Shown one piece after another: positions 55,199-58,946 of a stretch of 64,000 nt of DNA. Each line of letters opens with the position of its first letter. Position 1 is the stretch's first letter. The stretch is from Actinomycetales bacterium Actino_02. GTDB taxonomy: Bacteria > Actinomycetota > Actinomycetes > Propionibacteriales > Propionibacteriaceae. A model generated the notes under the pieces. That model was not told the DNA's origin. It saw only the letters and a list, made by a program, of their open reading frames with translations, and did no database searches. The DNA is taken from contig LUYM01000016.1 of the NCBI GenBank assembly GCA_001603275.1, positions 1 through 64,000 of the forward strand, in the 5' to 3' direction. The position numbers were made by a program, and so were the translations under genes.

Positions 55199-56314
55199 TC
55201 AGTCGAGCAGGTCGGACGTGCGCACGCAGTCCAGCCCGAACGCGTCGGCGACGCCGGGGAAGGTGATCTGTCCGGCGTGGGTGTTCAGACCCAGCGCCAG
55301 CGCGTGATTCTCCTTGCAGGCGCGCTTCCAGCCCTTGCCGGCCAGCTGCAGGGCGTAGGCCAAGGTGGCGTTGGTGAGCGCCCAGGTGGAGGTGTTCGGC
55401 ACCGCACCGGGCATATTCGCCACGCAGTAGAAGATCGAGTTGTGTACCGCGAAGGTCGGGTCATCGTGGGTGGTCGGCTTGGAGTCCTCGAAGCAGCCAC
55501 CCTGGTCGATGGCCACATCCACCAGCACTGAGCCGGGCTTCATGGCAGCCACCATCTCATTAGTGACCAGCTTGGGCGCCTTGGCTCCGGGGATCAGCAC
55601 AGTGCCGATCACCATGTCGGCGGCCAGCACCTGCTCCCGGACGCTCAGCTTGGAGCTGACGATGCCGTGCACCCGGTTCTCGTAGCGCCAGAAGGTGTTG
55701 CGCAGCTTGTCCAGATCAGTGTCCAGGATGGTCACGTCCGCGCCCATGCCCAGAGCCACGTTGGCGGCGTTCTGCCCGGCAGTGCCGCCGCCCAGGATGA
55801 CCACCTTGGCGTTGGCGACGCCACCGACGCAGCCCATCAGCACACCGCGTCCGCCCTGAGCCTTCATCATCGAGTAGGCACCGACCTGCGGAGCCAGGCA
55901 GCCGGCCACCTCAGACATCGGGTAGAGCAGGGGGAGCAGGCCGCTGGGCAGCTGGACGGTCTCGTAGGCGATCGCCGTGGTGCCCGAGGCCAGCAGGGCG
56001 TCAGTCAGCTCGCGATCGGCGGCAAGGTGCAGATAGGTGAACAGCAGCAGGTCGTCGCGCAGGTAGCCGTACTCGGACTCGATCGGCTCCTTGACCTTGA
56101 GCACCATCTCGCCGGCCGCCCAGGTTTCCGCTGCGGTCGGCAGGATCTTGGCGCCCTGCGCGAGGTACTCGGCATCGGAGATCGATGAGCCGATTCCAGC
56201 GCCGGCCTGAATGAAGACTTCGTGTCCGTGGCCGACCAACTCGGCGACACCGACGGGAGTGATGGCCACCCGGTATTCGTGGTTCTTGACCTCGGCGGGT
56301 ACGGCGATCCGCAT
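55199..56314 (-). CDS. ald: Alanine dehydrogenase
   Basis: 371 aa, full length. MRIAVPAEVKNHEYRVAITPVGV start, KVKEPIESEYGYLRDDLLLFTYLHLA with catalytic His (about 96), NAD-binding ILGGGTAGQNAANVALGMGADVTILD, SVLVDVAIDQGGCFEDSKPTTHDDP. Reversibly deaminates L-alanine to pyruvate with NAD. AAAGGAC precedes the ATG. First gene of a two-gene unit with the YtcJ-like hydrolase. Confidence 0.95.
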   Translation of the reverse strand: MRIAVPAEVKNHEYRVAITPVGVAELVGHGHEVFIQAGAGIGSSISDAEYLAQGAKILPTAAETWAAGEMVLKVKEPIESEYGYLRDDLLLFTYLHLAADRELTDALLASGTTAIAYETVQLPSGLLPLLYPMSEVAGCLAPQVGAYSMMKAQGGRGVLMGCVGGVANAKVVILGGGTAGQNAANVALGMGADVTILDTDLDKLRNTFWRYENRVHGIVSSKLSVREQVLAADMVIGTVLIPGAKAPKLVTNEMVAAMKPGSVLVDVAIDQGGCFEDSKPTTHDDPTFAVHNSIFYCVANMPGAVPNTSTWALTNATLAYALQLAGKGWKRACKENHALALGLNTHAGQITFPGVADAFGLDCVRTSDLLD

Positions 56315-56442
56315 CCTTGCGTCCTTTCGGTTCAGGGCCGGTCCTGCCCGACCCGGGAAAAGTTTGCTACACCTCGGTTAAGACCGGATGTCGGCACACC
56401 TGGCCTGAGTGCCGTTGGTGAGGCGCTAAACTCGTTTCCGAA

Positions 56443-56568
56443 CGTGCTCCGGGGTCGGTGTAAGTCCGAACCGGCGGTGATAGTCCGCGACCCGTTCCTG
56501 CTTGCAGGAGCGGTTGACTCGGTGAAACTCCGAGACCGACGGTGAAAGTCCGGATGGGAGGCAGCACG
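56443..56568 (+). ncRNA. FMN riboswitch (RFN element)
   Basis: The conserved RFN blocks are present in order: CTCCGGGGTCGGTG, AAGTCCGAACCGGCGGTGAT, AGTCCGCGACCCG, a variable stem, TTGACTCGGTGAAACTCCGA, GACCGACGGTGAAAGTCC, GGATGGGAGGCAGCACG. P1 pairs CGTGCT (56443-56448) with AGCACG (56563-56568). It lies 80 bp before the RibX-like gene. A TAAACT box (56427-56432) is a plausible -10. FMN binding should lower expression. Confidence 0.95.
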
Positions 56569-56621
56569 CGGCGTCGCCACGCGATCTGATCGCCTCGGCG
56601 AGCCGTTGCGCATCCCAAGAA

Positions 56622-56644
56622 CCGCCTCGAAGCTGAGGCGGAGG
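56622..56644 (+). promoter_or_regulatory. Shine-Dalgarno-overlapping hairpin of the riboswitch expression platform
   Basis: CCGCCTC (56622-56628) pairs with GAGGCGG (56635-56641). The last two G of the stem are the first bases of GGAGG, the ribosome-binding site for the ATG at 56650. This suggests translational control by the upstream FMN aptamer. Confidence 0.6.
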
Positions 56645-56649
56645 ATTGG

Positions 56650-57402
56650 ATGAAGCGCGAGTTTGCAGCTCCGGTGGCCCTGGGTGGGCTGCTGATCGTC
56701 GGCTGGCTGGTGACGGCCAGTGCGAACCCGTCCGCGCTGCTGCCCGGACCCGGCGCGGTGCTCGCCCGGCTGGCCGGCTTCGTTGTTGACTCCAGCTACT
56801 GGGGCTACCTGGGGACCACAGTCTTGGAAGCCTTCGGCGGTGCCCTGCTCGGCACGGCGGTCGCCCTGCCGATGGCCGCGCTGATCCACCGCTCGCGTTG
56901 GGCCGCCGCGGCGATTAACCCCTTCCTGGGCGCCACCCAGGCGATTCCGGCGGTCGCAATCGCGCCGCTGCTGGTGCTGTGGATCGGTTACGGGCTGACT
57001 CCGGTGATCGTGCTGTGTGCGCTGATCGTTTTCTTCCCGATCCTGATCTCGACGGTGATCGGCCTGCGCCATGTGGACGCCGACGTCGTCGATGCGGCCC
57101 GAATGGACGGGGCCGGCAGCTGGCAGCTGCTCACCCAGGTCGAGTTCCCGATGGCCCTGGCCTCGGTGCTCGGCGGCATCCGCAACGGCGTCACCCTCTC
57201 GGTCACCGGCGCCATCGTCGGCGAGATGGTGATGGGCGGCGGCGGGCTGGGCACCGTCCTCACCGTCCAACGCGACTCCTTCGATACCGCCGGGATGATC
57301 GGGACCGTCATCGTGCTCGCCCTGATCGCATCGTCGGCCTATGCCGTCATCCACCGCTGGGAGCGCAACTCCCGGGTGATCGAGTCTTTCCGCAGGTCCT
57401 GA
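56650..57402 (+). CDS. ribX: ABC transporter permease, RibX-like (riboflavin uptake)
   Basis: 250 aa, about six helices, BPD_transp_1 domain with the EAA loop DAARMDGAGSWQLLTQVEFPMALASVLGGIRNGVTLS (about 153-190). Of the nitrate/taurine/NMT1 permease class. Being first behind an FMN riboswitch, with an NMT1-like binding protein next, it corresponds to RibX of the RibXY system predicted in Chloroflexi and Actinobacteria. No ATPase gene follows, so a shared ATPase encoded elsewhere is needed. The ribosome-binding site is part of a hairpin. Confidence 0.85.
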   Translation: MKREFAAPVALGGLLIVGWLVTASANPSALLPGPGAVLARLAGFVVDSSYWGYLGTTVLEAFGGALLGTAVALPMAALIHRSRWAAAAINPFLGATQAIPAVAIAPLLVLWIGYGLTPVIVLCALIVFFPILISTVIGLRHVDADVVDAARMDGAGSWQLLTQVEFPMALASVLGGIRNGVTLSVTGAIVGEMVMGGGGLGTVLTVQRDSFDTAGMIGTVIVLALIASSAYAVIHRWERNSRVIESFRRS

Positions 57403-57413
57403 AAGGAACAGCT

Positions 57414-58436
57414 ATGCGCAAGATCCTTGTGGCCGTCCTGGCCGCCGCTGTGTTCGCCCTCGTCGGTTGTTCGCAGCCGGCGAGTTCGACGACGCCGAGC
57501 TCGACGACGCCGAGCAGCTCCGCTGCGCTGCCGGCGGCCACGATCGGGCTGACCTACATTCCGAACGTCCAGTTCAGCCCGTTCTACGTCGCTGAGTCCC
57601 AGGGCAGCTTCACCAAGGCCGGCGTGGACGCCACCTTGCGCCATCACGGCACCTCCGAGGGCCTGTTCACCGCCTTGGTGGCCGGCCAGGAGCAGTTCGT
57701 GGTGGCCGGCGGGGACGAGATGCTGCAGGCCCGGTCGCAGGGCATGGATCTGGTCGCTGTGTCGGCCTACTACCGCAGCTACCCGGTGGTGCTGATCGTG
57801 CCGGACAGCTCGTCGATCACCAGCCTGGCCGATCTCAAGGGGCATTCGATCGGAATCCCCGGCAAGTATGGGGAGAGCTGGTTCGGGCTGCAGGTCGCCC
57901 TGCGCAGCGCGGGCTTGAGTGAGTCCGACGTGAAGATCAAGGAGATCGGCTACACCCAGCAGGCTGCGCTGCAGGGCGGCAAGGTGGACGCCATCATCGG
58001 CTTCTCCAACAACGATCTGGTCCAGGCGACGCTGGCCAACTTCCCCGCCCGCTCGATTCCGATCACCAGCGGCGACGTCCCGCTGGTCGGGGCCAGCCTG
58101 ATCACCACGACCGCCTACGCCAAGGCTCACCCGGAGGTCGTTCGCGCGGTAGTGGCCGGCACCCTGGCCGGGATTTCGTCGGTCGTCGCCGACCAGAGCC
58201 AGGCGATGACGATTTCGGCGGACTACATCCCCGGCCTGGACGTGGCCGCGACCAAGGCGGCCGCTGAGGCCACCATCGCCGCCACGATTCCGCTCTGGAA
58301 GGGTGCCGACGGAGTCATCAGCGGAAAACTCGATTCATCGCAGTGGGCAAAGATGGCCGAATTCATGGGCGCCAATGGTTTGACCACAAGCACCCAGGAT
58401 CCGACACTGGCGATGAGCAACGACTACCTCGGCTAG
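57414..58436 (+). CDS. ribY: Riboflavin-type substrate-binding lipoprotein, RibY-like
   Basis: 340 aa; AAAGGAA before ATG. Lipobox LVGC (Cys about 19), a Ser/Thr/Pro linker with a repeated STTPSS unit, then an NMT1/THI5-like periplasmic-binding fold (about 42-340: IGLTYIPNVQFSPFYVAESQGSFTKAGVDATLRHHGTSEGLFTALVAGQEQFVVAGGDEML). Under the same FMN riboswitch as the permease, which points to riboflavin or a precursor as ligand rather than thiamine precursors. Confidence 0.85.
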   Translation: MRKILVAVLAAAVFALVGCSQPASSTTPSSTTPSSSAALPAATIGLTYIPNVQFSPFYVAESQGSFTKAGVDATLRHHGTSEGLFTALVAGQEQFVVAGGDEMLQARSQGMDLVAVSAYYRSYPVVLIVPDSSSITSLADLKGHSIGIPGKYGESWFGLQVALRSAGLSESDVKIKEIGYTQQAALQGGKVDAIIGFSNNDLVQATLANFPARSIPITSGDVPLVGASLITTTAYAKAHPEVVRAVVAGTLAGISSVVADQSQAMTISADYIPGLDVAATKAAAEATIAATIPLWKGADGVISGKLDSSQWAKMAEFMGANGLTTSTQDPTLAMSNDYLG

Positions 58437-58502
58437 AACTCCGACCCTGGGAGATACCCTCTGTGGAGGCGAGAGATCATTCCGCGGTGAGATAGGAGGG
58501 AC

Positions 58503-58946
58503 GTGTCCGCTGTGACTGTGCCCAGCTGGGACGAGTATTTCCTCACTATCGCCTCTGCGGTGGCCACCCGGGCCAAGTGCACTCGGCGTCGGGTGGGTGC
58601 GGTGTTGGTGCTGGACCGGCGGATCATCGCCACCGGCTACAACGGCGCGGCACCCGGCCATCCCGACTGTCTGGAGGGCGCCTGCCCGCGCGGTCAGCTC
58701 AGCTATGACCAAGTGCCCGGACTCGGTGACTACGACCGTCCGGGCACTCCCGGCTTCTGCATCGCCATCCATGCCGAGGTGAATGCGCTGCTGTTCGCCA
58801 CCAGAGACACCAAGGGCGCCACCGCCTACATCACCGATCCACCGTGTCCCGGCTGTCGCAAGGCTCTTGCCGCCGCGGGCATCGAGAGAGCAGTCTGGCC
58901 GCAGGGTGAGCACAACGCTGCACAGCTGGTGGATTGGACCAGGTAG
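58503..58946 (+). CDS. dCMP deaminase-like cytidine/deoxycytidylate deaminase
   Basis: 147 aa, GTG start with AGGAGGG just upstream. Zinc motif HAEVNAL (about 81-87) with PPCPGCRKAL (about 114-123), and the extra Cys/His region GYNGAAPGHPDCLEGACPRG seen in ComEB/dCMP deaminases. It would convert dCMP to dUMP for thymidylate synthesis. It lies 66 bp after ribY. The link to riboflavin metabolism is positional only, though RibD deaminases belong to the same superfamily. Confidence 0.87.
   Translation: MSAVTVPSWDEYFLTIASAVATRAKCTRRRVGAVLVLDRRIIATGYNGAAPGHPDCLEGACPRGQLSYDQVPGLGDYDRPGTPGFCIAIHAEVNALLFATRDTKGATAYITDPPCPGCRKALAAAGIERAVWPQGEHNAAQLVDWTR

Follow-up and report, generated by a model that had tools for sequence, protein, structure and literature searches.

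Organization of the locus

The window (the whole stretch of DNA that was analysed, 64,000 nucleotides in length) belongs to a Propionibacteriaceae genome and carries an FMN riboswitch followed by ribX, which encodes a permease, and ribY, which encodes an NMT1-type substrate-binding lipoprotein. The features are collected in Table 1. The structures of the two proteins were predicted with pLDDT values of 89.1 (RibX) and 90.5 (RibY). No ABC ATPase gene adjoining ribXY was present among the genes called in the region 49.5-64 kb; PF00005 gave zero matches within the 64-kb window and the nearest match on the contig lies at C16:70604. The first-pass annotation had read the locus as a permease and an NMT1-type binding protein without an ATPase gene, and this description was upheld by the PF00528 and PF09084 matches and by the absence of PF00005 from the window.

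Table 1. Features of the ribXY locus and the orphan ATPase of the same genome
Feature	Position	Strand	Basis and remarks
-10-like box TAAACT	56427-56432	+	Read from sequence; ~8 nt 5' of the aptamer
FMN riboswitch aptamer	56441-56570	+	RF00050, 97.1 bits, E 3.3e-21
7-bp hairpin	56622-56641	+	Sequence and folding; first two G of the Shine-Dalgarno site lie in the 3' arm
GGAGG Shine-Dalgarno site of ribX	56640-56644	+	Sequence; 5 nt before ATG 56650
ribX, permease	56650-57402	+	PF00528 BPD_transp_1, E 1.2e-28
ribX coupling (EAA) loop	residues ~145-169, Asp153-Gly154		Loop comparison
ribY, NMT1-type substrate-binding lipoprotein	57414-58436	+	PF09084, E 4.3e-35
Orphan ATPase L108	G000:C11:30794-31888	minus	UgpC/MsiK sugar type, no permease neighbour

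FMN riboswitch and leader of ribX

The aptamer was aligned to the full RF00050 model (positions 1-138) and its score exceeds the gathering score of 66.2 bits, in agreement with its earlier description as complete. A covariance-model search of the whole 3.05-Mb genome returned the aptamer 5' of ribX as the sole RF00050 match. The position of the -10-like box suggests that the transcript may start at the aptamer; TAGACT, TAGAAT and similar boxes stand at this position in those leaders of the relatives that were displayed. A consensus scan returned no sigma-70-type promoter.

The arms of the hairpin downstream of the aptamer are CCGCCTC (56622-56628) and GAGGCGG (56635-56641). When the whole leader was folded, the five bases of GGAGG were unpaired with probabilities of 0.0, 0.01, 0.99, 0.76 and 0.76, so that the last three are mostly open. 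A 7-bp hairpin covering the start of the GGAGG site had been claimed previously; the hairpin is real and overlaps the start of the site, but its pairing takes in just the first two G of the Shine-Dalgarno sequence, and by itself it would be a partial block. In two relatives (L004 and L009) the folded stem takes up the entire GGAGG. Across 13 leaders from the window's genome and related genomes, in which the post-aptamer part was folded alone, the mean probability of being unpaired at -15 to -5 ranged from 0.09 to 0.47. No terminator-like site was found within 56300-58600, which fits translational control; such control is thus likely for ribXY. From this anatomy, the ribX start would be open at low FMN and ribXY would be made; on binding of FMN the leader would favour the Shine-Dalgarno hairpin and synthesis would drop.

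Conservation among related genomes

Relatives were collected by a search in which each species was represented by one genome; it yielded 80 loci, the records being those of Actinomycetota. A RibX homologue adjoins ribY in all 80 loci, on the opposite strand in L066. An FMN element is located immediately 5' of ribX in 67 of the 80 (doubtful cases were rechecked with Rfam), two loci are truncated by contig ends and 11 have no such element upstream of ribX; these 11 are records of Streptomyces and, in one case, Saccharothrix (L065, L066, L068, L073-L077, L079-L081). In L066 the FMN element precedes ribY, with ribX on the opposite strand, and in L065 and L077 it is located elsewhere. Three Georgenia records contain an extra FMN element some kb downstream (L031 10008-10147, L078 10261-10354 and L038 7375-7467). 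No ATPase-like ORF was found beside ribXY in any of the 80 loci (945,304 bases); the single ATPase-like ORF across these bases, in L016, is distant and on the other strand.

Riboflavin supply

No match to lumazine synthase or riboflavin synthase was found in the window's genome (completeness 100), with the same searches being positive in 14 of 14 and 11 of 14 control genomes, respectively. The organism is presumably a riboflavin auxotroph, and since the last two known enzymes of riboflavin synthesis are missing uptake should be essential. Lumazine synthase was also missing in 36 of the 50 RibXY genomes searched, which are a chosen subset of the 80 loci and include many MAGs, so that absences in those are weak. 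In some Streptomyces of the set RibXY and riboflavin synthesis occur together. An ECF-type S component is encoded at G000:C15:1170-1661 (L264, in L130), beside an ATPase gene and at a contig end; it scored above the PF12822 cut-off and gave no NCBIfam or PDB match. As this S component has no assigned ligand, it could conceivably provide a second route for riboflavin.

Identity and cargo of the transporter

The locus is RibXY and its kind is already known: the combination of an FMN riboswitch with an ATPase-less RibXY was described in 2013 and 2015. The name RibXY dates from 2013, when it was given to a Chloroflexi transporter of riboflavin that is homologous to ThiXYZ and lacks the ATPase (PMC3766115). 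In 2015 RibXY was listed in Actinobacteria too, in a paper whose threshold was >38% identity and 80% coverage to Chloroflexus aurantiacus RibY (PMC4418817). In the same 2015 work the growth of an Escherichia coli riboflavin auxotroph was rescued by the two Chloroflexus ribXY genes alone, a report of flavin binding by C. aurantiacus RibY is cited and a ribZ ATPase gene is noted in a few Chloroflexi (PMC4418817). A 2019 survey places RibXY in prototrophs and auxotrophs alike (PMC6593275). The C. aurantiacus system (Caur_0816-0817) shares with the present locus the FMN riboswitch, the permease and NMT1-type binding protein and the lack of an adjoining ATPase gene, whereas the present locus belongs to a Propionibacteriaceae genome without lumazine synthase and riboflavin synthase.

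The locus very probably serves FMN-controlled uptake of riboflavin, where we infer both ligand and regulation. Riboflavin is taken as the ligand of RibY on the strength of the riboswitch, the absence of both synthases and the experiments published for Chloroflexus, and the same evidence lends support to the FMN-responsive riboflavin uptake proposed in the first-pass annotation. The closest solved folds to RibY are 3ix1 (Z 32.6, 296 residues, rmsd 3.3) and 4nmy (Z 31.5, 293 residues, rmsd 3.2), which bind an HMP precursor and thiamin, respectively; the absence of a fold from the structure-match lists of RibX and RibY excludes nothing. These folds, which RibY has in common with ThiXYZ, the transporter of HMP and thiamin precursors, would suit a cargo that is thiamine-related or some compound other than riboflavin, as would the thiamine riboswitch on ribXY homologues of other phyla (PMC4418817). 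Such a cargo is nevertheless highly improbable, given the FMN riboswitch in 67 of the 80 related loci, a genome devoid of the last two enzymes of riboflavin synthesis and the flavin binding reported for C. aurantiacus RibY (PMC4418817). The locus further differs from ThiXYZ in having an FMN instead of a thiamine riboswitch and no ThiZ-type ATPase gene nearby.

Class and fold of RibX

By sequence and fold, the body of RibX belongs to the nitrate/taurine (NitT/TauT) type. RibX scored 200.4 bits against a nitrate/taurine-type profile and 30.3 and 30.7 bits against two sugar profiles; with the loop masked the scores were 158.3 bits versus 7.3 and 0.0 bits, where the nitrate/taurine-type profile has an advantage, since the sequences it was made from had been aligned to RibX. 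The top fold matches (9ua0, Z 23.1, 243 residues, rmsd 2.9; 8wm7, Z 22.4, 240 residues, rmsd 2.6) include the nitrate and bicarbonate systems NrtBCD and CmpBCD along with OpuA. OpuA is also the top solved sequence relative, and the top paralogues within the genome are OpuA/ProW-type permeases on contig C3 (36 and 31% identity). NrtBCD and CmpBCD carry their own ATPases, whereas the RibXY operon has none; an operon of a NitT/TauT transporter is recognized by an ATPase gene of that class, which the RibXY operon lacks. The coupling loop differs as well, with Asp at position 9 in RibX and no Asp there in the 118 distinct NitT/TauT loops compared.

Search for the ATPase

PF00005 gave 86 matches in the genome, from which 35 stretches around single-domain ATPases were picked by eye and their neighbourhoods read. 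According to the gene calls, the importer-type ATPases in these stretches adjoin permeases, L108 being the sole exception. This orphan scored 452.9 bits against the UgpC subfamily NF008653 (cut-off 432) over residues 1-363, a length that includes the C-terminal domain, and it matches the solved SugC, MsmX and MalK. No ATPase of the genome reached the cut-off of the NrtCD profile, the top score being the 190.6 bits of the L099 ATPase, and for none of the ten ATPases typed was a nitrate, sulfonate or taurine ATPase family the best match. The first-pass annotation had held that the ATPase is shared from elsewhere and had advised a search for an orphan of the NMT1 type. No such orphan emerged from the searches of the genome with PF00005, with the NrtCD profile and for RibX paralogues, and the one that was found is of the UgpC/MsiK sugar type; the notion of sharing as such is supported by the lack of an ATPase beside ribXY and by the presence of this orphan in the genome.

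No ATPase-like ORF occurs in the stretches of those sugar permeases of the genome that entered the loop comparison. Relatives of L108 (E <= 1e-90) were found in 46 of the 50 RibXY genomes, the survey being confined in nearly every genome to 40 scored candidates; the four without a UgpC-type match at this threshold (L012, L015, L018 and L036) are all MAGs. Since an ATPase of this type is near-universal in RibXY genomes, its co-occurrence with RibXY says little. In genomes G084 and G093 RibX was the sole match to the RibX query, which leaves these two genomes with no apparent paralogous system of the RibX class; both genomes are MAGs, and a UgpC match is also missing from G084. A literature search, which covered few subscription journals, returned no paper that names the ATPase partner of RibXY.

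The coupling loop of RibX

In this class of importer the permease docks into the ATPase via the EAA loop, as described for MalFGK2 (PMC7658222). The stretch compared comprised 25 residues around this loop and was placed with profile alignments. At its position 9, 77 of 78 RibX sequences carry Asp; this set leaves out three frames of >400 aa (L064, L065 and L077), all of which read Asp-Gly. The lone exception (L013, 21-761) has Glu-Cys in place of Asp-Gly, and its contig starts just before ribX. Asp at position 9 was found neither in the nitrate/taurine-type permeases used as controls (118 distinct stretches) nor in any of seven permeases of other systems in the window's own genome. The controls came from genomes of the class and were drawn from 30 loci and 80 regions picked by score among the matches listed, a few of the regions overlapping; Leu is their most frequent residue at this position. 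The sugar permeases, which come mostly from this genome and were counted as distinct segments because the set has overlapping loci, carry it in 26 of 29 stretches; the other three, from operons L103 (also L084) and L105, were set aside as polyamine-type since their ATPases match PotA-type models best, which leaves 26 of 26.

In the RibX model Asp153 directly follows a short helix (144-152), and among 73 aligned RibX sequences Asp153, Gly154 and Ala155 are nearly invariant and Ala149 is invariant. With SugA, a mycobacterial sugar permease, the RibX family profile aligns only over profile positions 118-174 and 134-173, in the loop region.

Two broader propositions were discarded. The likeness of the whole loop to that of sugar permeases is weak once the Asp is removed: scored without the Asp-Gly columns, the RibX loop has no clear sugar-permease character (median 1.2 bits, 43 of 78 positive). 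A rule by which a missing ATPase gene goes with the loop Asp also failed: an ATPase is located within 1.5 kb in 115 of 121 rows of nitrate/taurine-type permeases, and the six rows without one nearby are likewise without the Asp. RibX forms one clade, so the loop Asp counts as one evolutionary event, and the loop evidence for a putative sugar-ATPase partner is essentially one residue in one clade.

Proposed mechanism and alternatives

RibY would take up riboflavin outside the cell and RibX, probably as a homodimer, would pass it inward. An ATPase acting in trans would provide ATP hydrolysis; the most probable one is the orphan UgpC/MsiK-type ATPase, which is also taken to serve the sugar permeases that have no ATPase gene, and RibX would dock to it via the coupling loop bearing the Asp of sugar permeases. 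It is on account of this Asp and of the orphan that RibX is proposed to have changed partners. The case for the UgpC/MsiK-type ATPase as the partner of RibXY, which is built on sequence comparison, stands evenly balanced. The reading as a whole, an FMN-switched riboflavin importer RibXY driven by a shared UgpC/MsiK-type sugar ATPase, is slightly favoured. The further statement that a vitamin permease of the nitrate/taurine type was switched to the shared sugar ATPase by adopting the loop Asp, and that the flavin supply of an auxotroph hangs on it, is put forward tentatively, its chances falling just short of even.

RibXY might instead draw on the ATPase of a complete system of the genome, for example one of the OpuA/ProV or PotA/PhnT type. 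The OpuA/ProW-type permeases on C3 are the best paralogues of RibX in its own genome, among solved structures OpuA is closest to RibX in sequence and the L099 ATPase tops the NrtCD scores, all of which would be in keeping with such a loan. The ATPases in question, however, sit in operons with their own permeases, and the own-genome permeases of other systems lack the loop Asp in all seven cases; we regard a loan of this kind as unlikely. Operation as a binding-protein-assisted facilitator without ATP hydrolysis would account for the lack of an ATPase gene beside ribXY in the 80 loci and for the rescue of E. coli by two Chloroflexus genes alone (PMC4418817), although in that host the cell's own ATPases could be lent. 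Yet the residues of the EAA docking loop (Asp153, Gly154, Ala155 and Ala149) are conserved, from which an ATPase is expected because the loop would not be kept without one, and a few Chloroflexi possess a ribZ gene for an ATPase (PMC4418817). A facilitator is accordingly considered very unlikely.

The proposed sharing by the UgpC/MsiK-type ATPase resembles that of the multitask ATPases of CUT1 importers (MsiK, MsmX and MsmK), with which L108 has in common a score above the UgpC cut-off and the lack of a permease neighbour; it differs in that the proposed client RibX is a vitamin permease of another subfamily. According to a 2020 paper, reports of ATPase sharing are limited to CUT1 sugar importers (PMC7658222), and a riboflavin client for a multitask ATPase would be new. 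RibXY without an ATPase has been known since 2013. If the proposal is true, multitask ATPases reach beyond sugars and the puzzle of the missing ATPase of RibXY is settled; loss of the shared ATPase would then be expected to starve auxotrophs of both flavins and sugars.

Neighbouring genes

A gene of the dCMP/cytidine-deaminase type (58503-58946 of the window) comes after ribY; a relative occurs in 18 of the 80 RibXY loci and lies directly 3' of ribY in most of those listed. Upstream of ribXY an alanine dehydrogenase gene is located on the opposite strand (55199-56314), and a relative is present in 17 of the 80 loci, at the same position in those listed.
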